From: Clavaria fumosa
Lineage: Eukaryota > Basidiomycota > Agaricomycetes > Agaricales > Clavariaceae
Reading direction: 5' to 3'
Length of the DNA stretch: 64,000 nt
Assembly (NCBI GenBank): GCA_951802425.1
Contig: OX637799.1
Span: 3,224,001 to 3,288,000, forward strand
A model generated the notes under the pieces. That model searched no databases. It saw nothing but the letters and a program-made list of their open reading frames with translations, and had not been told where the DNA came from. Position numbers and translations under genes: made by a program. Position 1 is the first letter of the stretch. Each line of letters starts with the position of its first letter. Shown here one piece after another: positions 7,191-22,101 of the stretch.

Positions 7191-7752
7191 CCGCCTGTCC
7201 GCCCTAGCCCCGTGTCCTAACCCAGCTAGCCTGGACCCTTAATTTCAAACTGTGACACGTTGTCACAGCTCAGCCCCTATCATCCTCTTCTCCTTTACCC
7301 TGCCCACGGTGTGTAACAGAACCGCGCGAAATTTTTACTGTGTGTAGATACACATGACCAGACCAGGAGGAAGTCAACTGTGACCCTCCCCAAGTGATAC
7401 CGAGTGCCCAAGGCCCAGAACTTTGTTTTACAGCTACGTACCAGTGAATCGTGTAGTGTACAGGGCAAGGAAAGGCCCCTACATAGTCTTTCTGTAGTTT
7501 CCTGGTCCAGTGGACAGGGCCCTTGCTCTGTGACCATTGTCAGAAGGGCGCACGGGCAACTCATTAGGAGTTGTGGAGCGACCACCTGGGACACCATTTG
7601 GGCCCCACGTTAACAAAAGTTTCATAGAATAAGAGTTCTATAGGTACATAAGTACACAGAAGAGCAGCCTAAGAGGACAGGACTGTTAAGAGATCGAAGA
7701 AATCCTGAGTGCCCAAGGCCTGGAACTTTATTTACAGCATCCAGGGCCTGTG
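7191..7752 (+). other. A1 untranslated leader before gag
   Basis: About 560 bp without a supported ORF, homologous to the leaders of A2 (minus strand, about 22958-23476) and A3 (28965-29553). Compared with them, A1 carries a replaced segment at about 7347-7440. That segment contains a second copy of the GAGTGCCCAAGGCC... block that otherwise ends the leader at about 7708-7738; both copies end in a pyrimidine-rich TTTTACAG or TTTACAG that resembles a 3' splice site. Confidence 0.6.
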
Positions 7753-8547
7753 ATGGCAGACCATGTTGCCCTGCCTGTAGCCCAACCTATGAGGCTTGAC
7801 CTATCTGTTGCCCCCTTTGATGGGCAGAAAAGGAACTTCCGTATGTTCCTCCGATCCCTTCGCCTCCTGTTTATGGCGAACCCGACTGTCTATGCTGTGG
7901 ACCTGGTGAAGGTCCTTCTTGCTCTGAGCAAAATTACTGGAGAAGGATTCGCTGCAGAGTGGGCGAATATGAAGGCAGAAGAGATCCTGGGTAGTGGCGA
8001 GGCCGGAACCTGGGCAGAGTTTGTGGAGGAGATGAAGCACGCATTCGATGACCCGAATGACCGTGCGACTGCCCTTGCCAATATTGCAGGGCTGAAACAG
8101 GGTGCCATGACAGCACCAGAGTTCTTCGCGAAATTCGAGACGCTGTTCCAACGGGCGAAGTTGAGTGCAGAGAAGGACTCAGGAATCCTAGTCCATTGGC
8201 TGGAGTTGAACCTGAGTAGGAGGTTGGTGGAGAGAATCTATGGTGTCTCCCCGATGCCAGAGACATATGGAGAATGGAAGGTGCTGGCTGAGAGGCTTGA
8301 TGCCCAGCAAAGGCGACTGGATGGGATACTCACGGAACGGACACCGCGACCCACTGTGACCCCAGTGCGACCCATCATGACCCTACCGCGACCTGCCGTG
8401 ACCGTTTCGCGACCTCTTGTGACCCCTCTGCTGTGTACTCCAGATGTGGCCATGGCCCGAGGATGGGCCCCTGCTGATGAGAGATGTTGTTTCCGATGCC
8501 ACCAGACTGGCCATGCTGTCCGTTTCTGCCCCCTGCCTGATACACGT
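7753..8547 (+). CDS. A1 gag portion of gag-pol polyprotein (frame continues at 18448)
   Basis: This encodes the capsid/nucleocapsid part of the A1 polyprotein. The start chosen is the ATG at 7753; an in-frame GTG precedes it. Residues 1-215 form a retrotransposon Gag region rich in Trp and Leu (for example FVEEMKHAFDDPNDRA). A Pro/Thr/Arg linker with repeated PRP/VTP motifs follows, then a CX2CX4HX4C zinc knuckle at residues 246-259 that should bind the element's RNA. The frame is cut at codon CGT (8545-8547) by element B. After B it resumes at 18448 in the same phase, so gag and pol form a single ORF as in Tf1-like elements. No stop or frameshift is seen in this half. Confidence 0.93.
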
Positions 8548-9465
8548 TGTAAGGACCATATGCGATCTAAACATGGAAACATGACAGATACCGACTATCC
8601 GGATGTTTTGCGATCCAAAGAAATTACGTGCGATACGAACCGATAACGATCCGACACCGTCCGATAACGACCGATAGTATCCGATACATGTCCGATGTCG
8701 GACACTTCGGTCTTCAATCCCCCGTGACGATCACAGCCCACCGCTCTCACACACCGCCCACGCCTCTCTATTTCACCTCTCCAGCACGGTCAGCGCTCGA
8801 CATACACACTATTCCATTCCCATTCCTTTATTTCATATACCATGCTGTAAATTTCATATTATGATCCCTTTCAACCATTCAATCGTTTAAACGTTTCAAA
8901 CCCTTTGCAGTACCTTGTCCATTGTTCTTAGTACCCCTTTGCTGTACCAGCCCCACTTTCCTTCAGTTTATGAGCGGTCCGGACATTTGCTAGTTATCGG
9001 ACATTTCATTCCTCCGAGCTACTCATTTCCCTTGTGATATAACTCCTTCATGTAACCCTTCACGCGACATGGCGCTGTTCCATGTGTTTTCCGGACATTT
9101 CCGTACATTCCAATTTGCTGTACTTACAGAACTGTACTTAAGTACACTCCGGACCTCTCTGAAAGACAGCTTTCTGAACCCCTTCTCTCTGTTAGAAACC
9201 TCACCTAAGCTCACCCGTCGTCGCAACCTTCGATCCGCTGGCCTCCGTCGTTGCCGGCCCTTCGTCTTATCGCACCATCCTTATCGGATTTTATCGGACA
9301 CATAGCAGAATATCCCGGACACCGTATATTTCTATTTCTCACACATTTTGAATTCATACTCCACATCCTCAAGGGTGTTTGGTGAATCTCTAACGCCTTA
9401 CAGGAACCCCTGAAGGACTTGACTGTAATCAAGCAGTTGCAGCAAGAACCGTAATACCCACTACA
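8548..9465 (+). repeat. B 5' LTR (918 bp)
   Basis: Starts TGTAAGGACC and ends CCCACTACA, with TG...CA borders confirmed by the ACGT duplication and the 3' copy. At 8628-8700 it holds a cluster of CCGATA and related CCGAT motifs on the plus strand, a possible U3 regulatory array. Confidence 0.95.
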
Positions 9466-9469
9466 ATTC

Positions 9470-9487
9470 TGGAGCCCACCGCGAGGG
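9470..9487 (+). other. B primer-binding site (tRNA-type)
   Basis: Four bases after the LTR comes TGGAGCCCACCGCGAGGG. TGG is complementary to the CCA end of a tRNA. The complement reads as a 7-nt acceptor strand plus T-stem, and the match could extend to about 20 nt into the T-loop. I cannot say which tRNA. B therefore primes differently from elements A and C. Confidence 0.6.
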
Positions 9488-9854
9488 GTTCAACAAGACG
9501 TCTTCACTACCACCCTCAAGGATTCCCAGAGGCTCATCCGCTCCTCAGCCTCGACGCTCCGAACGCCTGAGAAGTCGAAACCCGAATCCGATCACAGAAC
9601 CACCGCCCTCCGAACCCCCCGGAGAAGTAATTGAAACTTCCCACCTTCTTCCATCGGACATTCCCAGTATCTCATCCATTGTCTACTCCCACACGAGTTT
9701 CACCACTCCGGATCCCTCACTACCACAGACCTTCGAACAACCACACTCACCGCTTACACCACTTCCCCTTGAACCAGACATCCTTCATTTCCCGCCCGAA
9801 ACACCTCAGAATTCACCAGACGAAGTTCACTCACCGCCCCACGCACCAATACAA

Positions 9855-11852
9855 ATGGCCAACCAACCGAGATATCCGCTCCGTGGCGCCCACGGGGCCC
9901 CTGCCTTTGACGGAGTACCGACACACCTCAACCGGTACTTCGAGGACATCGACATCGTGCTCACCGGCGTCAACCCGGACGTTCCAGAACCCGATTTAAT
10001 TCGGTACGCCAAGCACTATCTCGACACCGATACGTGTCTCCTCTGGGAGACTCTTTCACCTGACCCGGACCCGGTATGGACGTGGGATACCTTCAAAGCG
10101 GCCGTCCGACGACTTTATCCAGGATCTGATGGAGGTCGCTTATTTTCCGTCGCCGACCTGGACCGTTTCATATCGGACTCGGCCCAAAAGGGAGTTTACA
10201 CGCGCGCAGAACACGGAGAATACTATCGGGACTTTCTCCGGATCACCTCGCACTTGATCACATCACAGCGTATGTCCACAAATGACAGGAACCGACTTTA
10301 CATCCTCGGATTTGGGGATCATACAAGGCGTCGGATCGAAAGCCGACTCGCTATCATACTACCAAACCACCATCCGGAGGATCCTTACCCCATGAATGAA
10401 GTACATGGTGCAGCTGAATTTCTTCTCTCCTCGACGTCCCCCCACTCTGCGACAACCGATCAACTTTCCGGACCCGTCCGTCTCGCATCTTCAGCCCCCG
10501 GGAGAGAAACGAAACCGGTAGTCAAGAAGGAAGAATTTGATATGTTCGCAGCATGGGCAACATTCGCTTCCACAATGGCTCGCCTGGAATCGATTTTGAC
10601 AGCCCAATCTCTCGAACCGGCAAGACACTCCGCTCCCCGGACAACGAACTCTCCCGCAGGCCGGACGTGTAATTTCTGTTCGGAAATAGGTCATTTTGTT
10701 AGTGCCTGTCCGAAGGCCCTCGAATACATTAAGTCCGGCAAATGTATACGGAACACAGAAGGCAGGATTTGTCTCCCCTCCGGACGATATTTGCCAGGCA
10801 CTATCTCAGGGAACAACCTATCCGAGCGCTTCGACAAGTACTACGCTACATACCAATCCCAGAACACGCAACCGGCGACAACCGCGGTATTTGAAGCACA
10901 GCCGATCGGACAATCCGCTCACCCCCCGGACATGGAAGATGATTCGGACGAGGAAGATGACGAAAATACCGTGTTGGAAAACATGGTCCGCACCTTTGCA
11001 AACGATGTCGCGAAGAAAGTAGACAAGGGCAAAAGGAAAGCACCCACACCCAGGAATACCGATCCTCAGCCATCTAGGTTACCGCCCCCACCCGCCGTTG
11101 TTATTACGCCGCCTCAGGTCACTCGTCCATCAAAGCCAGAGAAAATCGAACGACCCGACGTCCAGTACCATTACCAAGCTCCGATCGAAAATCCGGTAAC
11201 CGTTCAACAAGTATTCGATCGCGCACTCGACATGCCAGTCCGCGTCACACCTCGCGAACTACTCGCCATTTCCGGAGACATCCGCAAAAAGATGAAGGAT
11301 GTGGTTACCGCTCGTCGCGTTCCGGTCACCGCGTCCGTCGTACAGGATACGCTCTATACAAACATTACGGTCCCGGACACCTCCGATCTTGTTGTCGCCG
11401 TCGACGCTGCTCCGCTCCGCATCGTAGAAGGGATATTGGACAACCGGATCGCCGCGGAGTGCCTGCTCGACCAAGGCAGCTCAATCGTGGCAATGCGAAG
11501 AGACGTTTGGGAGAAACTCGGCAACCCACTACACTCCGAGAACGTTATTCACATGGAATCCTCTCATGGCACCATCGCTCCGACCCTCGGACTCATCAAG
11601 AATTTCCCCCTACAGATCGGTCCGTGCACATTCCATGTTCAAATGCAAGTAGCAGACACGTTGCCCTGCGAGGTTCTTGTCGGACGACCGTTTTTCATGT
11701 TAACCGGTTCCCAAACGATTGACCATCCCCACGGGGCCCAGGACCTTATTCTCAACGATCCAAACACCGGAGAAAGAATCATAGTGCCAACGAAGGAGCG
11801 AATCCCGATCCGCAAATCCTTGAAGAACAAGAAACCGCATCCGGATTTTTGA
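9855..11852 (+). CDS. B ORF1: Gag-protease
   Basis: 665 residues, starting at the ATG at 9855. The N-terminal half is a Gag-like region (WTWDTFKAAVRRLYPG near residues 75-90). A CX2CX4HX4C zinc knuckle occupies residues 272-285 (CNFCSEIGHFVSAC). An acidic/basic linker follows (about 350-400). The C-terminal third is a retropepsin-like aspartic protease: LLDQGSS near residue 537 is the catalytic loop, with Gln where most have Ser/Thr before Gly, and EVLVGRPFF is near 615. It ends at a TGA (11850-11852) that lies inside a run of T. The pol frame overlaps it in -1, so Gag-Pol is probably made by frameshifting. It should form the particle core in the cytoplasm. Confidence 0.92.
   Translation: MANQPRYPLRGAHGAPAFDGVPTHLNRYFEDIDIVLTGVNPDVPEPDLIRYAKHYLDTDTCLLWETLSPDPDPVWTWDTFKAAVRRLYPGSDGGRLFSVADLDRFISDSAQKGVYTRAEHGEYYRDFLRITSHLITSQRMSTNDRNRLYILGFGDHTRRRIESRLAIILPNHHPEDPYPMNEVHGAAEFLLSSTSPHSATTDQLSGPVRLASSAPGRETKPVVKKEEFDMFAAWATFASTMARLESILTAQSLEPARHSAPRTTNSPAGRTCNFCSEIGHFVSACPKALEYIKSGKCIRNTEGRICLPSGRYLPGTISGNNLSERFDKYYATYQSQNTQPATTAVFEAQPIGQSAHPPDMEDDSDEEDDENTVLENMVRTFANDVAKKVDKGKRKAPTPRNTDPQPSRLPPPPAVVITPPQVTRPSKPEKIERPDVQYHYQAPIENPVTVQQVFDRALDMPVRVTPRELLAISGDIRKKMKDVVTARRVPVTASVVQDTLYTNITVPDTSDLVVAVDAAPLRIVEGILDNRIAAECLLDQGSSIVAMRRDVWEKLGNPLHSENVIHMESSHGTIAPTLGLIKNFPLQIGPCTFHVQMQVADTLPCEVLVGRPFFMLTGSQTIDHPHGAQDLILNDPNTGERIIVPTKERIPIRKSLKNKKPHPDF
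11846..11852 (+). promoter_or_regulatory. Candidate -1 frameshift site at the B ORF1 stop
   Basis: In the ORF1 frame the end reads GAT TTT TGA. Slipping back one base on TTTTT re-pairs TTT with TTT and turns the stop into TTG, entering the open pol frame. No ATG is available at the start of pol. The fit to the usual XXXYYYZ pattern is only partial (T TTT TGA), so efficiency is unknown. Confidence 0.5.
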
Positions 11853-14800
11853 GAGCTGGAGCCTCGAATGTCCGCAAACCAACGGACTTACCTCCGATCA
11901 ATGCGGACACGGAAGCTATACCCAGATACGAGACTCCAGCCATTTTTCCTACTTCCGTTCACGTTCCCTTATCGTTTTCCCTTATAAACCCAGTCTCTCT
12001 CGACCCCTTCCCCTGTATCAGTATCTCGGACGTTTCTCTCGATTCCGCTGATTCCCCAGTCGCTATCGGACGTGAACCGTCGCGTCCAAATGTTGCAACC
12101 CCCTTGTACAACAAAACCCCCGAAATAAACTCCCTGTCTACGGACGCCGTTCTTCCAGTTTACTTGGGAAAGAAATATAAGAAAGTCGCGAATCGCATCA
12201 ATCCGATCAAAGCGACAGTACCCAAAGAATTCCGGATTGTCCGACGCCGACACCCGGACCCCCTAGCCGATATGCCAACTCTTCCGACCCATCCCCCCGA
12301 TTTCACCCCCGGTCTTCGATACACTCAAAACCGGAAAGACACGCACAACGCCAACCCCACCGGATTCTTATGGCCGGAGGAAGAAAAACTCGTTCACCAT
12401 CTTATTAAAGCCCAGGAAGACGCCTTCGCTTGGAAAGAGACCGAAAAAGGACGATTCGACGCAAAATACTTCGATCCGATTATTATCCCGACAGTCGAAC
12501 ATATCCCTTGGATCTTCAAAAATATACCGATTCCCCCCGGTATTTACGACGAAGTTCTCAAAGTAATCCGGGAAAAGATCGCAGCCGGCGTTTATGAAGA
12601 ATCCAACTCTTCTTATCGGTCCCAGTGGTTTTGCGTGTTAAAGAAAGACGGAAAGTCTCTCCGACTCGTGCACAACCTCCAGCCGCTTAACAAAATCACT
12701 ATCGGCGATTCCGCGGTCCCCCCGATAATGGAGGTTTTTGCGGAATCATTCGCCGGACGCGGATGTTACGGATCACTCGACCTTTTCGTCTCCTTCGATC
12801 AGCGGTCTCTGGACGAACGAAGCCGAGACCTCACCACGTTTCAAACCCCTCTCGGAGCAAAACGGCTCACCTGCGTCCCCATGGGATACACCAACGCGAC
12901 GCAGATTATGCATGGAGACGTCACGCATGTTCTACAAGATGAAATTCCGCACGTAACCATCCCATTCGTAGATGATGTAGCGATCAAGGGCCCGGAAACC
13001 CGATACGAGCTTCCGGACGGCACCTACGAGACGATCCCTGAGAATCCGCAAATACGACGATTTGTTTGGGAGCATTTAAATAACGTCAACCGGGTGCTCC
13101 AACGAATCAAGAAAGTCGGAGGAACCTTTAACGGCAAGAAAACGACAATTTGCGTTCCCGAAGCAGTCGTTACCGGACATACGTGCACATACGAAGGACG
13201 AGTTCCGGATGCCTCCAACGTTCAGCGTATCCGGGACTGGCCTCCTTGCAAAACCCTGACCGATGTCCGATCATTTTTAGGGGTTTGCGGACTACTCCGG
13301 ATATTCATTAAAAACTACGCCGTACTTGCCCGACCTCTTGTCAGTCTAACTCGCAAGGACGTGCCATTCAGATTCGAAAAAGAAGAACAAAACTCGATGG
13401 ACCGACTCAAACACGCGATTCTGAACTCATCCGCCATCCGACCAATCGACTACCGCTCCGGACAACCCGTAATCCTCGCCGTCGACTCATCAAATATCGC
13501 TGTTGGTTTCGCACTCTTCCAAATTGGAGAAGATGGAATACGATATCCCTCCCGCTTTGGCTCCATTACCTGGAACGAACGCGAGGCCCGATACTCACAA
13601 GCAAAAATCGAATTATACGGACTCTTCCGCGCACTTCGGTCGTACCGGATTTACCTTATAGGCCTTCCGAAATTTACTGTCGAAATGGACGCGAAGTTCA
13701 TTAAGGGTATGCTAAACAATCCGGACATTCAACCCAACGCTGCCATGAATCGATGGATTGCCGGTATACTACTCTTCGATTTCGATCTTGTTCATATTCC
13801 CGCAGATAAGCACACCGGAGCCGACGGACTATCACGCCGACGTGCCGCAGATGGTGAAGAAGATACCGAGTCTGAAGATCACGAAGAATGGATCGATCGG
13901 AGCTACGTATTCGCCATGGAACACATGAATCGAGCACCGGACGCTTCCTACACATCCGAGACACGACTCGCCGGCATCACCCATACTCGCTTCAAAGTTT
14001 ACACAGGATCGACGCTACTCAATTCGACGGTACCACCCGAGGAATCACCGACCCCGAACGAATCTTCCGCCGTCCTTATACCCCGATCCGATGCAGCAAA
14101 CAAAAGAGAAGAACAGATTCGCAAAATTGAATCTTTCCTTCGAAACCCGATCCGTCCCTCCGGCATTGACGCAAACCAGTTCCGACGACTGGTCCGCTCC
14201 GCATCCGAGTTCTTCATCCTAGATGACAAATTATGGCGTCGCCGACCTAACGGATACCACCAAGTAGTACCTCCGGACCACAAACGTCTCGCAATTATCA
14301 CAGAGGCACACGATTCACTCGGCCACAAAGGCGTTTACGTTATCCGGACACGTATTCTAAATCGGTTCTGGTGGCCGGTGCTGGATCAAGACGTAAAATG
14401 GTTTGTCAAAACTTGTCACCAATGCCAAACTCGGCAAATCCGGAAGATCTTCATTCCACCGACGGTCGCTACACCGGCCGGTCTTTTCCGTCGAGCGCAC
14501 ATTGATACTATGTTCCTACCAAGAGCCCGCGGTTTCCGACTTCTCGTCCACGCCCGATGCTCGTTATCCGCATATCCGGAAGCAAGACCGCTACGAAACG
14601 AGACCGCCCGACTTCTCGGAACCTTCATATTCGAAGATATACTATGCCGATGGGGAGCAGTAGAAGAGATTATCACGGATAACGGAGCCCCATTTATCAA
14701 AGCCCTCGATTTCCTTAAGAAACGGTACGGAATCCATCACATCCGTATATCCGGATACAACTCCCACGCTAACGGCGTCATCGAACGTGCCCATCGATCG

Positions 14801-15586
14801 GTCCGTGAGTCGTTAATCAAAGCAGCAGATGGAGACGAATCGAAATGGCCGGACGTTTTACCCTCAGTCATTTGGGCAGAACGAACCACGATCCAACGGT
14901 CCACCGGCCACTCCCCATTTTACATCGCACATGGCGTCGAACCGCTTTTCCCCTTCGACATATCCGAAGCAACATATTTAATTCCGACCGCCGACGCCCC
15001 GATGACCACTCCGGAACTGATAGCCCTTCGTGCCCGCCAACTGCAAAAACGAGAAGAAGATCTAGCAACAATCGCCGATAAAGTGCTCGCTGCCCGCAAA
15101 CAATCCGTCAAGCAGTTCATCGACGCACACCGGAAGTCTATTATCGACTACGACTTCCAACCCGGATCGTTGGTATTGATCCGCAATTCGGCCGTTGAAA
15201 TGGAATTAAATCGAAAAACAAAACCGCGATTCTTCGGACCGATGATCGTCGTTCGCCGAACACAATATGGCGCCTATATTCTCTCGGAACTCGACGGCGC
15301 CGTTTCCAAAATCCACTACGCAGCTTTCCGCATCATTCCCTACTATCCGAGGTCGCAAACATCGATTCCGGTCACTTCTATCATCGACCAAATGACGGAG
15401 ATAAACGAGGACATCTCTCCCTATCAAATACACGAGGCGTCACCCAACTCTATCGACAGAGAAGATGAGCAAAACCAAGCGGCTGACCTATCCGATGAAT
15501 CCGATAATGAAACCACCGACGACGACACTGCAGAAACTCGTCCGCAACGCTCCGGAGCAACCCGGAACCCTCGGCCTCGCCATTAA
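11849..15586 (+). CDS. B ORF2: Pol (reverse transcriptase, RNase H, integrase)
   Basis: About 1245 codons in -1 frame relative to ORF1; the frame opens upstream of 11849 and has no own ATG there. Reverse transcriptase spans about residues 240-420: YGSLDLF near 310 and FVDD at 373-376, with Phe and Val replacing the more usual Tyr and Leu/Met. RNase H spans about 545-660 (AVDSSN and an E/D pattern). Integrase has a zinc finger with H821 and the Cys pair at 856 and 859, and a DDE core at D886, D944 and E979 (34 residues between the last two). The C-terminus is acidic (ESDNETTDDD) and lacks a chromodomain. It copies RNA to DNA and inserts it. No stop interrupts it. Confidence 0.94.
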   Translation: MRAGASNVRKPTDLPPINADTEAIPRYETPAIFPTSVHVPLSFSLINPVSLDPFPCISISDVSLDSADSPVAIGREPSRPNVATPLYNKTPEINSLSTDAVLPVYLGKKYKKVANRINPIKATVPKEFRIVRRRHPDPLADMPTLPTHPPDFTPGLRYTQNRKDTHNANPTGFLWPEEEKLVHHLIKAQEDAFAWKETEKGRFDAKYFDPIIIPTVEHIPWIFKNIPIPPGIYDEVLKVIREKIAAGVYEESNSSYRSQWFCVLKKDGKSLRLVHNLQPLNKITIGDSAVPPIMEVFAESFAGRGCYGSLDLFVSFDQRSLDERSRDLTTFQTPLGAKRLTCVPMGYTNATQIMHGDVTHVLQDEIPHVTIPFVDDVAIKGPETRYELPDGTYETIPENPQIRRFVWEHLNNVNRVLQRIKKVGGTFNGKKTTICVPEAVVTGHTCTYEGRVPDASNVQRIRDWPPCKTLTDVRSFLGVCGLLRIFIKNYAVLARPLVSLTRKDVPFRFEKEEQNSMDRLKHAILNSSAIRPIDYRSGQPVILAVDSSNIAVGFALFQIGEDGIRYPSRFGSITWNEREARYSQAKIELYGLFRALRSYRIYLIGLPKFTVEMDAKFIKGMLNNPDIQPNAAMNRWIAGILLFDFDLVHIPADKHTGADGLSRRRAADGEEDTESEDHEEWIDRSYVFAMEHMNRAPDASYTSETRLAGITHTRFKVYTGSTLLNSTVPPEESPTPNESSAVLIPRSDAANKREEQIRKIESFLRNPIRPSGIDANQFRRLVRSASEFFILDDKLWRRRPNGYHQVVPPDHKRLAIITEAHDSLGHKGVYVIRTRILNRFWWPVLDQDVKWFVKTCHQCQTRQIRKIFIPPTVATPAGLFRRAHIDTMFLPRARGFRLLVHARCSLSAYPEARPLRNETARLLGTFIFEDILCRWGAVEEIITDNGAPFIKALDFLKKRYGIHHIRISGYNSHANGVIERAHRSVRESLIKAADGDESKWPDVLPSVIWAERTTIQRSTGHSPFYIAHGVEPLFPFDISEATYLIPTADAPMTTPELIALRARQLQKREEDLATIADKVLAARKQSVKQFIDAHRKSIIDYDFQPGSLVLIRNSAVEMELNRKTKPRFFGPMIVVRRTQYGAYILSELDGAVSKIHYAAFRIIPYYPRSQTSIPVTSIIDQMTEINEDISPYQIHEASPNSIDREDEQNQAADLSDESDNETTDDDTAETRPQRSGATRNPRPRH

Positions 15587-15643
15587 GTATTTTTTCTCCA
15601 TCATATCCTTCATTTTTCTATACTTCACATTGATTCACACCTT

Positions 15644-15676
<33 letters not shown>
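15644..15676 (+). terminator. A-tract between convergent pol and antisense gene in B
   Basis: An uninterrupted run of about 31-33 A lies 60 bp after the pol stop, and a second A-rich stretch lies at 15777-15812 just before the antisense stop at 15818. On the antisense strand these are T-rich. They separate two convergent genes and may hold the 3' ends of both transcripts; this role is inferred from position. Confidence 0.45.
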
Positions 15677-15677
<1 letters not shown>

Positions 15678-15817
15678 GAAATTTCGGACAAGTCCAAACT
15701 TTATACCCGACGTTCTTTCAACCATTTTCTCACATTCTCACATTCCTCACTTATCCCACACGACATACCATACCAAATAGAAAAAGAAAAACATATATAA
15801 AAACAAAAACAAAATAT

Positions 15818-17368
15818 TTACTTAGAGGACGACTCGCCAAGGAGGAGCATCCGGAGCAGCTCCGCTCCGGCCTTCACCTGGTCCGCCCCCCTCTCCATCA
15901 TCTCCAGCGCCCTATCGAGCGCCTCCCTCCCGGACACCCCTCGCGCCACCTCCCGCTCCTTACCCTTCCGACTTGGTCCCGCCTCCGCCTTCTTCTTCTT
16001 TGCCGGCGGCTCCTCCACCAGCTCCACACTGGTATCCTCCTCAATCTCGTCCTCCTCCTCCGGCGTCGTCTCCTCGCGAACCGGTACCCGCGTCGCACCT
16101 CGCCTCGGCCTCTTACTTCCGCTCGCTCCTGCCGCCTTCGGACCTGTTCCGATACGTTAGCAAATGCGGACCCGATACCTTCTCGACATACCTTCCGTTC
16201 CGGACACCGCCGCTCTCTCTGTTTTCGCTCCTGAAACACACCTATCACTTGTCTCATCATGAAAAATAAAAAGAATACCACTTACCTCGCACAGCCGACA
16301 GACTGCACGATACCTTATACGTCCGGCACCACCGGCACGCTATCCCCTCCACTCCGTAGCACGCCCGCCACTTCCGGGTGCACTCCTTGCACCCCGGAAC
16401 GTGCTCCTAATCATTATATCAGACGTCGAAAAAGCCTCACATATCTTAATTAACCACTCACCTTATCTCCAGGCTGCCGCGCAGCCCGGGACTCTATGTC
16501 GCTCTTCGCCCCACCTCTCCTCCCTCGCCCTCGCTCCGCTGCCTTCCGCCTCGCGATCTCCACCCACACCGGAGTCGCCATCATCCGCGCACCGTCCCGG
16601 TGCACGAACATCGGCTCCTCCACCGACTGCTCGCCTCCCCCGGCCACCGCACTCACCGCCGCCGCCTCGATAACACCGACGGGCGTCACCCCGTCGGTTC
16701 CCCACACGGTCCGATGACCGTCCGGATCCTCCCCTGCCGCCACCTCGTCCACACGCAGCTCTCCGGCGTCCGGTGATATCGTCGTCGTTGTTACCGCCGC
16801 TGCACCGGACTCCGCCGCTCCCGTCGTCGTCGTTGTTGCCGCCGCCGCCGCCTCGCCCTCGTCGTCGCTGTCACTTACGACAATTAAGCGCGCCCGGGCA
16901 AGGCGCGCCCTCTTCTCGGCAGCCCTCGCCGCCTCCGCCCGCCTCTCCTCCGCCTCCGCCTCTGCTGCGGCCCGCTCAGTAGCCGCCCTCTCCTCGCTCG
17001 TGCGCTGTTTCGCGGCCTCGACCTCCTCCCGCCTTCTCGTCCGCTCAGCGGACCACTCGTCCCCGCGGAGCTTCCGCCACTTCTTGAGCCTTCGCGCGAC
17101 CCGGACGAGTCCCTCGTCCACCTCCACGTCGTCGTCGATCGCTGCCACATATCCGGCAAGAAAATCGTCCTAAAAACGTTGTCAGTACGATACAAAAAAG
17201 TACGAAAGATTCTCGTTCACGCACCGCGTCACCCGCATACGTCCCCACCCACTCCGCGCACTCTCCATCCTGCCCCCGATCCGGCAACTCCTCGCCCGGC
17301 GCCATGGCCTGCGCCTCGGTCATCGCCTGGACTGCGTTTCGAAAGATTGAAGAATCGAAGTTTTCCAT
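15818..17368 (-). CDS. Antisense five-exon gene in B: Zn2Cys6 coiled-coil protein of 445 residues
   Basis: Exons on the minus strand: 17368-17225, 17169-16462, 16406-16286, 16230-16192 and 16143-15818. The four introns are 55, 55, 55 and 48 bp, all GT...AG, and they keep one frame of 446 codons including TAG. Residues 49-140 are acidic then Arg/Glu/Ala-rich, probably a coiled coil. LIVVSDSDDEG at 143-153 has the form of a SUMO-interacting motif. Cysteines 290, 293, 300, 308, 311 and 318 fit CX2CX6CX7CX2CX6C, the fungal zinc-cluster pattern. Basic stretches (SKRPRRG; PAKKKKAEAGPSRKGKERE) suggest nuclear import, and a short helical tail ends the protein. It lies between pol and the 3' LTR, in reverse. 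A nuclear DNA-binding or regulatory role is inferred; I do not recognise a named family. Confidence 0.85.
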
Positions 17369-17525
17369 TGTCGGAGAGTTGACGTGTTGCTGTCGCTGGA
17401 GAAAACACAAGGGTGTGTTTGGACCTATGTGCACCCACACGACGCGTACTTCACGATCAACAAACCGTTATTTGGCCTTGTTTGGTTGCAACCGAGGGCG
17501 GTTGCATTTTCAGCCCCCGGGAGAA
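17369..17525 (-). promoter_or_regulatory. Upstream region of the antisense gene, next to the 3' LTR
   Basis: Only 157 bp separate the antisense ATG from the 3' LTR, so antisense transcription probably starts here or within the LTR. The last bases before the LTR (GCCCCCGGGAGAA) contain the likely, unusually short, plus-strand polypurine primer. I see no clear TATA box on the minus strand. Confidence 0.35.
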
Positions 17526-18443
17526 TGTAAGGACCATATGCGATCTAAACACGGAAACATGACAGATACCGACTATCCGGATGTTTTGCGATCCAAAGAA
17601 ATTACGTGCGATACGAACCGATAACGATCCGACACCGTCCGATAACGACCGATAGTATCCGATACATGTCCGATGTCGGACACTTCGGTCTTCAATCCCC
17701 CGTGACGATCACAGCCCACCACTCTCACACACCGCCCACGCCTCTCTATTTCACCTCTCCAGCACGGTCAGCGCTCGACATACACACTATTCCATTCCCA
17801 TTCCTTTATTTCATATACCATGCTGTAAATTTCATATTATGATCCCTTTCAACCATTCAATCGTTTAAACGTTTCAAACCCTTTGCAGTACCTTGTCCAT
17901 TGTTCTTAGTACCCCTTTGCTGTACCAGCCCCACTTTCCTTCAGTTTATGAGCGGTCCGGACATTTGCTAGTTATCGGACATTTCATTCCTCCGAGCTAC
18001 TCATTTCCCTTGTGATATAACTCCTTCATGTAACCCTTCACGCGACATGGCGCTGTTCCATGTGTTTTCCGGACATTTCCGTACATTCCAATTTGCTGTA
18101 CTTACAGAACTGTACTTAAGTACACTCCGGACCTCTCTGAAAGACAGCTTTCTGAACCCCTTCTCTCTGTTAGAAACCTCACCTAAGCTCACCCGTCGTC
18201 GCAACCTTCGATCCGCTGGCCTCCGTCGTTGCCGGCCCTTCGTCTTATCGCACCATCCTTATCGGATTTTATCGGACACATAGCAGAATATCCCGGACAC
18301 CGTATATTTCTATTTCTCACACATTTTGAATTCATACTCCACATCCTCAAGGGTGTTTGGTGAATCTCTAACGCCTTACAGGAACCCCTGAAGGACTTGA
18401 CTGTAATCAAGCAGTTGCAGCAAGAACCGTAATACCCACTACA
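17526..18443 (+). repeat. B 3' LTR (918 bp)
   Basis: Same length and borders as the 5' LTR, with two visible substitutions, both transitions at CpG positions. Followed by the ACGT duplication at 18444-18447 and then by A1 pol. Confidence 0.95.
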
Positions 18444-18447
18444 ACGT

Positions 18448-21400
18448 CTGCAGGTCCCAAGGGCCCAAACCCAGGCAGCACCATGTGCCCCCCAAATGGC
18501 GGAGGGATATGAGAAAGAGATTGCACGGCTCCGAGCCTGCATAGAGCTGTGTGAGAGAGAGAGGAGGACTCCCACTGGGGAGAAGAAGTGTGCCAGCCCC
18601 CTTTCCGTCCCTGTGCCTGCTGCAAGTATACCCCGATATACTATCTTGCAGCAGAGACATACCCGAATTGGGGCTGAGGTGAAGGAGGAAGTGAGACTGG
18701 CAGAGCACCTAACCAGAGTGCGGCCAGAAGTGCGGAAACATGTGCCACGAGAGCTAGCCATCCAGGTGCACTTGGAGGCTTTCAGCACTGGCAAAGGGAC
18801 CACAATGAAGGCCCTTGTCGACTCAGGGTGCACCAACTGCTTCATGGATTTGGAGTGGGCGAAAGGAGTGGGACTGGAGCCATCTCTCCTGCTGAACCCA
18901 ATCACCATGTATAATGTGGATGGGACACAGAACAGGAATGGAAAGGTCCGGTATGGGATAGAGGTGCTGGTGAGAGTTGGTGACCACCAGGAGCGGATCC
19001 ACTTTCTGCTGGGAAAGACCCAGTCCCACAAGGTCATCCTTGGGCATGACTGGCTCAAGCGGCATAACCCGGATATCGACTGGCAGAAGGCAGAGCTGAG
19101 CCTTACCCGCTGCCCCCCACAGTGTTCCCCATCCCCTCAAGCCTCTGCACCCCTGAAAACGAGTACCCTCGCATCCACGAGTATTCTGGACACCCGTTTT
19201 CCCAACTCTGGCCCTACCCCCGATTGGCCCAGCCGCTACCCTTTGGTGTTTAGTGAAGCAAAGTGGGATGAACTTCCCCGCTCCCGACCAGACTTCGATA
19301 TTAAGATCGAGTTCAAAAAGGACCCTGAGCACCTCTCCTCCAAGCTGTATTCTTTGACACGGCAGGAGATGGTGGAGATGAACTGTTGGGTGGATGAGCA
19401 GCTTGCTTCTGGACGAATCCGGCCCTCAAAATCCCCGTATGCCAGCCCCTTCTTCTTCAAACATGAGAAGGACAAACTGCGGCCAATCATCGACTACTCG
19501 AGGCTGAATGCACACCTGATCAAGGACAAGTACCCCCTCCCCCGCATCCGAGACACAGTGGATGTGCTTAAAGGAGCGTCGATCTACTCTAAGATTGATG
19601 CAAAGGGAGGTTTCCCATCTATGCAGGTCTGGCCCGAGCACCAGCACCGCTGCGCCTTCCTGACACCCCGTGGACTCTTCGAACCAGCTGTCATGTGGTT
19701 TGGACTGCAGAATGCCCCTGCTACCTTCCAATGCTTCATGAATCATGTGTTGAGGGAGGAGATTGCAGGAGGACATGTGAGGGCCTATGTGGATGATGTC
19801 ATTGTGTTTGCAGAGGACTTGGCTACACACCGGTACTGGATGGATCGGGTCTTGAGGAAGTTTGGAGAGAATGGGTTGTGTCTCAAACTCAGTAAATGCG
19901 AGTTTGAGAAGAGTGAGATCATCTTCCTGGGGATGAAGATCTCCCACAACAGACTAGAGCATGATCCGGCCAAGGGTGCGGCAGTCCGAGATTGGCCACG
20001 TCCTAAGAATGTGAAGGATGTCCAGAGGTTCAATGGGATGCTGAACTACCTCCGCCGGCACATCCCGAATCTTTCTGCCCGGGCAAAGCCACTCTTCCGG
20101 CTGACTGGGAATGTTCCATGGAAATGGGAGGAGGAGGAGGAAGCAGCCTTCCGAGATCTCCGCCAGGCACTTGTATCAGCCCCGGTCTTGGCTCTGCCTC
20201 AGGACAAAGGGAGATGGAAGGTAGAGACAGATGCAAGCAACCTGGCAACTGGTGGAGTGCTCTCGCAGCAGCAGACGGATGGAACCTGGAGAGTTGTTGA
20301 CTATATCTCCAAGGCCCTCACTGCAGCTGAGAAGAACTACGATGTGTACGACAAGGAGTTCTTGGCTGTGATTCGGGCACTTCGCGAGTGGCGAGCATAC
20401 CTCATTGGAGCAGAGGAGACGATCGAGATCTGGACGGACCATGCAAACCTCCAGTACTTCCGGAAGCCCCAGAAGTTGAAGCCAAGGCAGGTTCGTTGGG
20501 TGGGAGAGCTCCAGTGCTTTGACTTTGAGATAAAGTATCGCACTGGCAAGTCGAATACAAAGGCAGATGCACTCTCCTGGAGACCGGACTATGGAGAGAT
20601 GGTGGAGGAGGATGCACCGGTGCAGGTTTTCCCGGAAACGGAAGTCCGTGTGTCATTCACATCGGAAATGGAGACGCTACTCCAGAAAAATAGCGCGGTA
20701 CACATACAGAAGCCGGAGGAGCTTGATGATGAGTGGACACGAGATCGTGCTGGACTCTGGCGAAAGGGGATAGTCACTTGGGTCCCCCTAGGAGCTCGTG
20801 AGGCCGTTCTCGAGTTTGAGCATGACCTCCCTGCTGCTGGACACCCTGGGCCTCGGAAGTTGAGAACAACACTAGTGAAGGGTTATTGGTGGCCAGACAT
20901 GGTAAAAGATGCGGATCAGTATGCCCAGGGGTGTGAGACATGCCAGCGGACGAAGCCTGACCGTACCAAGCGTGCTGCCCCACTGCACCCCCATCTGGTG
21001 CCCGATGGTCCCTGGTCGGTGATCTCATGGGACATAGTCGGTCCCCTCCCCCTCTCCCGTGGACATAATGCCATCCTTGTTATTGTCGACAAATTCACAA
21101 AACGGACACTGCTCGAAGCGATCGGGCTCGACCTCACAGGACTTGGAGCGGCGCGTCTCCTCCGGGATCGAGTGTTTCGTGACCATGGAGTCCCTCACAA
21201 GGTTGTGAGTGACCGGGGGTCCCAGTTCGTGTCCCGCTTCATGAAGGAGTTCTACTCCATGATCCGGGTAAAGGCAAATCCAAGTACTGCCTTTCATCCG
21301 CAGACTGATGGACAGACGGAACGGGCGAACCAGGAGATGGAGATCTATCTCCGGGCTTACGTGGACCATCTCCAGGATGACTGGGCTGAATGGTTGTCCA

Positions 21401-22101
21401 CTGCAGAGTTTGCTCTTAATAATCGTGAGCACTCAGCGACAGGACAGACACCTTTCTTCCTCGATTATGGACGACACCCATGGAATGGGGGGCTCCGGCC
21501 ACCTTCTGAGGTGAACCCGGCAGCGGATGAGTGGATGGCTAAGCTCACGGAGTCCCGAAGAGCAGCCAAGGAGGCAATGGAGAAAGCGGTGGCAGCGATG
21601 AAGAAGAGCTACGATAAGGGGAAACGCCCAAGTCGGGAGTACTCTGAGGGAGATCTGGTCTGGCTGGATACTAGAAACTTGAAGATGGACCGGCCCTGTA
21701 AAAAGCTTGACAACAAGAGAGCAGGCCCCTTTGCAGTTGAGGAGAAGGTGGGACCTGCTGGGTATCGCCTCAAGCTCCCTCGGGCCTGGCGCATCCATCG
21801 GGTCTTCAATGAGTTGCTGTTGACACCATACCACCCCCCTTCCTTCCCTTCTCAGAACCTGCCTCCCCCTCCGCCCCCTACGATTGATGATGACCACCTG
21901 GAGTATGATGTGGAGGCGATCCTTGATGTTAAGAAGGTGGGGCGTGGAGTGAGATACCTGGTGAAGTGGTTGGGATACCCTGTAGAGGAGAACACTTGGG
22001 AGCCACGACAGAACCTCACCAATGTGGCACTGCTTCTCCGGGACTTCTTCCTTGCTCACCCCAACAAGGCCAAGCTAGCTGGTCGGGACACCCAGCCTTA
22101 A
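18448..22101 (+). CDS. A1 pol portion of gag-pol: protease, RT, RNase H, integrase, chromodomain
   Basis: This continues the gag frame from 8547 (codon CTG at 18448 is residue 266) and ends at TAA 22099-22101, giving residues 266-1482. The protease loop is DSGCTN at 390-395. Reverse transcriptase has DAKGGF upstream and YVDD at 712-715. RNase H begins with TDASN near D860. Integrase has a zinc-binding segment (H1057, C1094, C1097) and catalytic D1127, D1187 and E1223, the D-X59-D-X35-E spacing of retroviral integrases. A GPF/Y module (RAGPFAVEEKVGPAGY) follows. The chromodomain (about 1417-1465, YLVKWLGYPVEENTWEP) is expected to guide insertion to particular chromatin marks. There are no stops or frameshifts. 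It is nearly identical in layout to A0, A2, A3 and A4, which are all decayed. Confidence 0.95.
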   Translation: MQVPRAQTQAAPCAPQMAEGYEKEIARLRACIELCERERRTPTGEKKCASPLSVPVPAASIPRYTILQQRHTRIGAEVKEEVRLAEHLTRVRPEVRKHVPRELAIQVHLEAFSTGKGTTMKALVDSGCTNCFMDLEWAKGVGLEPSLLLNPITMYNVDGTQNRNGKVRYGIEVLVRVGDHQERIHFLLGKTQSHKVILGHDWLKRHNPDIDWQKAELSLTRCPPQCSPSPQASAPLKTSTLASTSILDTRFPNSGPTPDWPSRYPLVFSEAKWDELPRSRPDFDIKIEFKKDPEHLSSKLYSLTRQEMVEMNCWVDEQLASGRIRPSKSPYASPFFFKHEKDKLRPIIDYSRLNAHLIKDKYPLPRIRDTVDVLKGASIYSKIDAKGGFPSMQVWPEHQHRCAFLTPRGLFEPAVMWFGLQNAPATFQCFMNHVLREEIAGGHVRAYVDDVIVFAEDLATHRYWMDRVLRKFGENGLCLKLSKCEFEKSEIIFLGMKISHNRLEHDPAKGAAVRDWPRPKNVKDVQRFNGMLNYLRRHIPNLSARAKPLFRLTGNVPWKWEEEEEAAFRDLRQALVSAPVLALPQDKGRWKVETDASNLATGGVLSQQQTDGTWRVVDYISKALTAAEKNYDVYDKEFLAVIRALREWRAYLIGAEETIEIWTDHANLQYFRKPQKLKPRQVRWVGELQCFDFEIKYRTGKSNTKADALSWRPDYGEMVEEDAPVQVFPETEVRVSFTSEMETLLQKNSAVHIQKPEELDDEWTRDRAGLWRKGIVTWVPLGAREAVLEFEHDLPAAGHPGPRKLRTTLVKGYWWPDMVKDADQYAQGCETCQRTKPDRTKRAAPLHPHLVPDGPWSVISWDIVGPLPLSRGHNAILVIVDKFTKRTLLEAIGLDLTGLGAARLLRDRVFRDHGVPHKVVSDRGSQFVSRFMKEFYSMIRVKANPSTAFHPQTDGQTERANQEMEIYLRAYVDHLQDDWAEWLSTAEFALNNREHSATGQTPFFLDYGRHPWNGGLRPPSEVNPAADEWMAKLTESRRAAKEAMEKAVAAMKKSYDKGKRPSREYSEGDLVWLDTRNLKMDRPCKKLDNKRAGPFAVEEKVGPAGYRLKLPRAWRIHRVFNELLLTPYHPPSFPSQNLPPPPPPTIDDDHLEYDVEAILDVKKVGRGVRYLVKWLGYPVEENTWEPRQNLTNVALLLRDFFLAHPNKAKLAGRDTQP

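Follow-up and report, generated by a model that had tools for sequence, protein, structure and literature searches.

A predicted five-exon antisense gene, probably encoding a zinc-cluster protein, and a candidate target array in a Ty3/gypsy-type LTR retrotransposon

Results

The window, that is the whole 64,000-nucleotide stretch of DNA that was analysed, contains a Ty3/gypsy-type LTR retrotransposon at 8548-18443 with gag-pol on the + strand. The element is delimited by two 918-bp LTRs in direct repeat (5' LTR, 8548..9465; 3' LTR, 17526..18443; both + strand), which show 2 mismatches in 918 bp, and by the TSD ACGT at 8544-8547 and 18444-18447. The + strand carries a gag-protease ORF (9429..11852, stop to stop, with the first in-frame ATG at 9855) and, in another frame, a pol ORF of 1287 codons covering RT-RNaseH-integrase (11723..15586). 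In a profile scan of the pol ORF, Integrase_H2C2, RT_RNaseH and RT_RNaseH_2 passed their Pfam cut-offs on the + strand and RVT_1 fell just below its own, while the gag ORF matched aspartyl-protease and CCHC knuckle profiles, both below the Pfam cut-offs. The TG..CA ends of the LTRs, the TSD and the order RT, RNaseH, integrase place the element with Ty3/gypsy. The gag-protease and pol frames differ and overlap by 130 nt (11723-11852), an arrangement that suggests a putative -1 frameshift. A 19-base pattern taken 3' of the 5' LTR, where the tRNA primer was sought, matched 110 places, apparently element copies, and identified no tRNA gene. On both sides the element is flanked by large ORFs of another gypsy-type element (7690-8547 and 18433-22101), one side being gag-like and the other a 1222-codon pol ORF with a C-terminal stretch that appears chromodomain-like by eye; judged from this layout, the window element looks as if nested inside the other.

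The - strand carries an accessory gene between pol and the 3' LTR, antisense to gag-pol and hence in the aORF-3R position, with its ATG at 17368 and its stop at 15818. The predicted spliced frame of 1338 nt, or 445 codons, is divided among five exons: exon 1 (17225..17368), exon 2 (16462..17169, a long predicted helix and then a low-complexity linker), exon 3 (16286..16406, the entire CX2CX6CX7CX2CX6C cluster), exon 4 (16192..16230) and exon 5 (15818..16143, with an acidic stretch noted by eye, a basic PAKKKK signal and a conserved C-terminal stretch). All four introns on this strand are GT..AG, three of 55 bp (intron 1, 17170..17224; intron 2, 16407..16461; intron 3, 16231..16285) and one of 48 bp (intron 4, 16144..16191). 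Three of the introns of the window copy (1, 2 and 4) contain branch-like CT[AG]A[CT] motifs, which read CTGAC in intron 1 and CTAAC in intron 4. The sequence-only reading had claimed a five-exon, 445-residue frame opposite gag-pol with four GT..AG introns of 48-55 bp and a complete cysteine cluster; the gene structure was borne out exactly, and the cluster is present, wholly within exon 3. When splicing is disregarded, the longest open frame within the bounds of the gene is at most 239 codons in any frame. Sense-strand coding at 15818-17368 was considered and rejected, the longest open + strand stretch being 160 codons.

Two short stretches adjoin the gene. Between the pol stop and the antisense stop, about 60 nt past the former, lies an A run (15645..15675, + strand), which has a counterpart, either an A run or AAT/AAAAT repeats, at the same position in 14 of 14 loci shown, and is perhaps a fossil poly(A) joint left by capture of the antisense module. 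At the other end, the gap from the antisense ATG to the 3' LTR (17369..17525, - strand), on the polypurine-tract side of the sense element, is a candidate antisense leader or core promoter; its mean column conservation was 0.93, against 0.88 for the LTR part, over 11 sequences.

A DNA search of the genome (G000; 48.8 Mb in 17 contigs) with the gene, from which 40 candidates were scored, gave at least 43 matches. Among the matches listed, 36 span the whole 1551 bp and 35 of these are 96-100% identical. A close-copy set of 27 full-length loci was assembled, with the window copy included and the truncated L016 dropped, and in 26 of the 27 the spliced frame is open and every splice site is kept; L009, with a 19-bp exon deletion, is the one that differs. 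The only other frame-changing indels fell in intron 1, in five forms that amount to about one site since all sit at one run of T; in addition, one exon deletion of 15 bp and one of 36 bp leave the frame unchanged.

A protein search of the genome gave 174 matches, about 150 of them listed. Ten diverged genes (L010, L026 and L039-L046) were aligned with the close copy L009 and the window gene, and L047-L051, which share 53-66% identity with the window protein in N-terminal matches, were added later. L049 is truncated after intron 1; the 16 complete genes are the window gene, the 11 others of the first alignment and L047, L048, L050 and L051. All 64 introns in these 16 genes are GT..AG and stand at identical alignment positions, although their sequence and length have diverged. 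With four introns at matching positions in 16 of 16 complete genes, the gene structure is beyond chance.

Selection was assessed by comparing the window gene with eight codon-aligned diverged copies, a set that leaves out L009, L041, L045 and L047-L051. The dN/dS values were 0.20-0.29, or 0.26-0.39 without CpG differences, which account for about half of the codon differences, and differences at codon positions 1, 2 and 3 stood at about 50:50:130 in comparisons with L010, L039, L042 and L043. These dN/dS values include neutral decay, since several diverged copies carry stops or have lost the ATG, at least three of the eight compared copies being partly decayed. The young copies carry 25 nonsynonymous, 12 synonymous and 8 intron sites, a ratio of about 0.8 of expectation, which is close to neutral, as expected for recent insertions, and uninformative on constraint. 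A dN/dS near 1 among copies, which the sequence-only reading had itself named as evidence against the gene, was thus approached by the young insertions and not by the diverged copies. For the integrase end of pol, compared with 11 loci, dN/dS was 0.07-0.25, the two lowest values (L047, L051) coming with saturated dS. By these estimates the antisense gene is under purifying selection and somewhat less constrained than pol. A chance ORF was rejected as an account of the gene on the strength of its shared introns, constraint and copy integrity.

The listed matches, when merged, gave 95 gene loci and 86 pol loci. At 72 of the 95 gene loci, pol lies 202-1434 bp downstream on the opposite strand, and none of the 95 has same-strand pol in the 3 kb downstream. 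A tblastn check for pol covered 11 of the 23 gene loci without listed pol downstream and found antisense pol at eight (L033, L041, L044, L046, L047, L048, L050 and L051, the match at L046 being only 36 residues) and a pol fragment at L019 and L049; tblastn found no pol at L016. In total, 80 of the 95 listed gene loci have pol downstream in antisense, and the idea that homologues would sit antisense between pol and a 3' LTR, and not at non-transposon loci only, held. Seen from pol, 14 loci were left without a listed gene, and 10 of these have the zinc exon less than 3 kb downstream in antisense; 82 of the 86 listed pol loci carry the antisense gene or part of it downstream.

A captured host gene persisting elsewhere in the genome was considered and rejected, no host paralogue having been found. 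The exon-3 search, with candidates chosen by a loose first look, returned 140 matches, all with E <= 1.6e-10, and no weaker tier of host paralogues. Ten relatives of the zinc exon (78%) score equally and lie in G000 at C1:186728, C4:137839, C4:4408515, C5:135860, C7:42704, C10:3296156, C11:2608878, C12:153677, C13:1879789 and C14:51021, at least eight of them within about 36-190 kb of a contig end. One example of the ten, L056, is a decayed element with the layout of the window element and two partial LTR copies, and the ten may represent a duplicated, putatively subtelomeric block carrying the decayed element.

Beyond this genome, six relatives (P0002-P0007) were found among 5.8 billion predicted proteins, on contigs of at most 4,756 bases. 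P0002-P0006 are 53-65% identical, and P0007, a more distant relative, is 38% identical over 97% of exon 2. In P0002-P0005 and P0007, PGDK is followed by VS, reading as a GTGAGT-like donor would, and the exon-2 boundary is likely kept in these five.

The cysteine cluster of exon 3 reads CKECTRKWRACYGVEGIACRWCRTYKVSC, with the spacing CX2CX6CX7CX2CX6C, and holds six of the seven cysteines of the whole protein. All six are invariant in 8 of 8 sequences aligned and are kept in L047, L048, L050 and L051. The spacing of GAL4-type Zn2Cys6 clusters is CX2CX6CX5-12CX2CX6-9C, and the exon-3 cluster conforms to it. The Pfam profile Zn_clus (PF00172) scored 11.7 bits, 12.8 bits and no match on three exon-3 peptides, below its cut-off of 21, and zinc_ribbon_6 came out slightly above it at 13.9 bits, below its own cut-off of 27; the profile scan of the whole protein gave no Zn_clus match. 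When the genome was scanned with Zn_clus, 46 places were found, 27 of them above the cut-off; the window's own exon 3 was not among the 46, while ten exon-3 relatives were picked up at 15.9 bits, below the cut-off. The earlier assignment to Zn2Cys6 agrees with the spacing and the six invariant cysteines but not with the Pfam cut-off, and we regard the predicted protein as probably of zinc-cluster type.

No solved structure in the PDB matched exon 3 by sequence, and a single-sequence fold of exon 3 (pLDDT 62) was uninformative. An AF2 model of exon 2 from seven sequences showed a long helix at residues about 67-148 of the protein plus a disordered stretch; mean pLDDT exceeded 90 in the helix alone, along most of its length, and came to 57.9 for the whole, poor model. 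Exon 5 carries a basic PAKKKK/PAKRRK stretch. A SUMO-interacting-type motif, LIVVSDSDDE, to which the sequence-only reading had drawn attention, is not conserved, being missing in L044, L046, L047 and P0004. The profile scan, with E up to 1, gave no match in the protein to the TRP28 domain (PF04195) or to the bZIP family, to which HBZ of HTLV belongs.

Both LTRs contain a tandem array of TRTCGGAY units on the - strand, at 8638..8697 in the 5' LTR (+ strand CCGAY at 8640, 8651, 8661, 8671, 8681 and 8692), near the LTR start (presumed U3), and at 17612..17675 in the 3' LTR, 254-306 bp upstream of the antisense ATG. The window array has six to seven units with a 10-11-bp period, and no other 100-bp bin of the 64-kb window is as dense in RTCGGA as those of the two arrays. 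Such an array was present in 16 of 16 upstream regions examined (close copy L009 left out), about 240-330 bp upstream of the ATG, with 5-10 units, 3-8 exact CGG and 9-11-bp steps, and whole 10-bp units have been gained or lost between copies. In no region did more than 4 of 300 shuffles attain the exact-CGG count, and in 13 of the 16 no shuffle did, the shuffled stretch having been picked after the array had been seen. Over 61 units from nine regions, the information in CGG was 1.2-1.7 bits, a figure biased upward by the selection of chains with two or more CGG matches. Free of this bias are the T, T and A on either side, with 1.2-1.3 bits; the last two positions of the unit gave 0.16-0.20 bits.

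Across the genome, the three-unit pattern TRTCGGN4-5TRTCGGN4-5TRTCGG had 508 matches and its reversed control had 2. Within the first 100 of these matches there are 42 clusters, and 40 of the 42 lie less than 14 kb from an antisense-gene or pol locus, zones that make up about 10% of the contigs. Conservation of the TCGG columns was 0.93 against 0.84 for the spacer and 0.88 for the LTR mean, a modest excess. Part of the LTR signal is compositional, since gag-pol, too, shows an enrichment of TCCG words, of about 2-3-fold, and RTCGGA is dense across the element (4.7 per kb in the whole element against 0.8 outside), and a tandem array can stem from slippage. Words resembling the array units occur elsewhere too: intron 4 of the window gene holds two TATCGG words, intron 4 of L047 holds TGTCGG and TATCGG, and L047 and L048, the most diverged copies, have a second TATCGG array in opposite orientation deeper in the LTR (about 920-950 and 573-600).

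Discussion

Our preferred reading, which is held tentatively and falls just short of being probable, is that a constrained antisense gene of this Ty3/gypsy element gives rise to a spliced, nuclear zinc-cluster protein predicted to bind the CGG array of its own LTR and to regulate LTR transcription. Transcription of the minus strand would start from a promoter that lies within the 3' LTR or adjoins it, and the transcript would be spliced to the five-exon mRNA. In the product, the cysteine cluster would bind zinc, the long helix would mediate dimerisation and PAKKKK/PAKRRK would direct nuclear entry. Binding of this zinc-cluster product to the TRTCGGAY array of the 3' LTR would then lead to autoregulation of the antisense gene, and binding to the near-identical array in the presumed U3 of the 5' LTR would tune gag-pol output. 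The link between protein and array is drawn from the zinc-cluster class, whose members typically bind CGG triplets, and from the co-occurrence of the two. Where the sequence-only reading had proposed a regulator of the element or of host chromatin, a nuclear, DNA-binding, regulatory role is likely, while the host-chromatin part found no support; that reading made no mention of the LTR target array, which is added here.

More tentative still is the wider proposition that this lineage encodes its own sequence-specific transcription factor in a four-intron antisense gene, that the factor reads a helically phased CGG array in the LTR, and that protein and array co-evolve. If true, the control circuit of the LTR would be complete within the element itself, and only the sparing of antisense introns from removal in replication would make it possible. 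Introns antisense to the genomic RNA are not removed from it and survive every round of replication, and those of this gene survive since the gene is antisense to that RNA.

The main rival to LTR regulation is an anti-silencing function like that of VANC, in which binding of the protein to the LTR array would lift or forestall silencing by the host and not tune promoter strength. The VANDAL elements offer a precedent for a transposon protein that binds tandem short motifs in the noncoding DNA of its element (PMC5735166, in the text available), and the anatomy is shared, with a putative element-encoded DNA-binding protein and a noncoding array that changes by 10-bp units. The involvement of CpG in about half of the codon differences would also fit methylation. 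However, VANDALs are unrelated DNA transposons, and no observation made here separates activation from anti-silencing; we consider this account unlikely.

Less likely still is a role as a cofactor of integration or nuclear import, in which the protein would accompany the preintegration complex on its way to chromatin, the LTR array being bound by another factor. The basic signals and the long predicted helix would suit such a role, and a nuclear role is the usual suggestion for antisense proteins such as GENE23 of Grande (PMC7264820, as far as its available text goes). It leaves two things unexplained, however: why a phased CGG array stands upstream of the gene at an almost constant distance and, taken by itself, why the cysteine cluster is conserved.

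The array might instead be bound by a host transcription factor, the antisense protein having some other nuclear role. The genome does have Zn_clus proteins of its own, as the 27 of 46 scan places above the cut-off indicate, and TATCGG holds a GATA core on the other strand. Yet with 40 of 42 array clusters near these elements, the dense array is no general feature of host promoters, and it is CGGA that stays constant in the units, the GATA core being variable (TGTCGG in some units, and CCGGA in units of L045 and L046); we judge this decidedly unlikely. That the antisense RNA itself acts, through dsRNA or siRNA control of copy number with the protein secondary, is very improbable: retrotransposon antisense transcripts can form dsRNA (PMC7264820, available text), but such an agent would call neither for purifying selection on the protein (dN/dS 0.20-0.29) nor for conserved splice sites and a frame still open in 26 of 27 close copies.

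The LTR-regulation reading offers a concrete, testable function hypothesis for an antisense gene: it joins a conserved cysteine cluster of DNA-binding type to a phased CGG array whose place in the LTR hardly shifts. The persistence of several introns in this gene illustrates cleanly, in a natural case, how an antisense gene of a retroelement can keep them; the same structure lets coding potential easily slip past ORF scans.

Antisense genes between pol and the 3' LTR are known from maize Grande (gene23), rice RIRE2, PvRetro13 and Boty (brtn), and a review, in its available text, calls the functions of antisense genes of LTR retrotransposons unknown (PMC7264820). TRP28 of Retand is a further antisense gene of an LTR retrotransposon (PMC11963269, main text). 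In the light of these descriptions, an extra antisense gene in this position is no novelty in itself, and to that extent the earlier framing is not supported (PMC7264820, PMC11963269). What is new here is probably the multi-intron, probably zinc-cluster antisense gene together with the candidate target array that its own LTR contains: a search by title and start of abstract, with subscription papers mostly outside it, found no report of an LTR retrotransposon with a spliced zinc-cluster gene in antisense, and the available texts of PMC7264820, PMC11963269, PMC8365987 and PMC4227169 describe no multi-intron or zinc-cluster antisense gene and no matching LTR array.

Grande gene23, RIRE2 and PvRetro13 resemble the window gene in position, orientation, presence in most copies, conservation and a suspected nuclear regulatory role, and gene23 is transcribed from its own upstream promoter; in contrast, they belong to plants, and the available account describes no zinc cluster, multi-intron structure or LTR array for them (PMC7264820). 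The antisense gene brtn of Boty likewise occupies the stretch from pol to the 3' LTR, in a gypsy-type element of the fungus Botrytis cinerea; it was compared by description only, and the available texts mention no zinc cluster for it (PMC7264820, PMC8365987, PMC4227169). TRP28 differs in its PF04195 domain, absent here, and the main text of PMC11963269 mentions no introns for it. Antisense homing-endonuclease genes in nuclear group I introns also lie on the antisense strand of a mobile element and contain a short spliceosomal intron, which is removed in vivo, but the element is of another kind, the intron is single and the product is a nuclease (PMC9548176, available text). HBZ of HTLV is, like the predicted window protein, an antisense-coded nuclear regulator of a retroelement (PMC11963269, main text), from which the window protein differs in having no bZIP profile match. 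For VANC, binding to tandem motifs was shown in vivo and in vitro, and the motifs evolve with the Arabidopsis VANDAL elements (PMC5735166, available text). By analogy, both systems pair an element-encoded DNA-binding protein with a short target motif in tandem in the element's own noncoding DNA, whereas VANDAL is a DNA transposon, of another class, and binding in the present element is a prediction.
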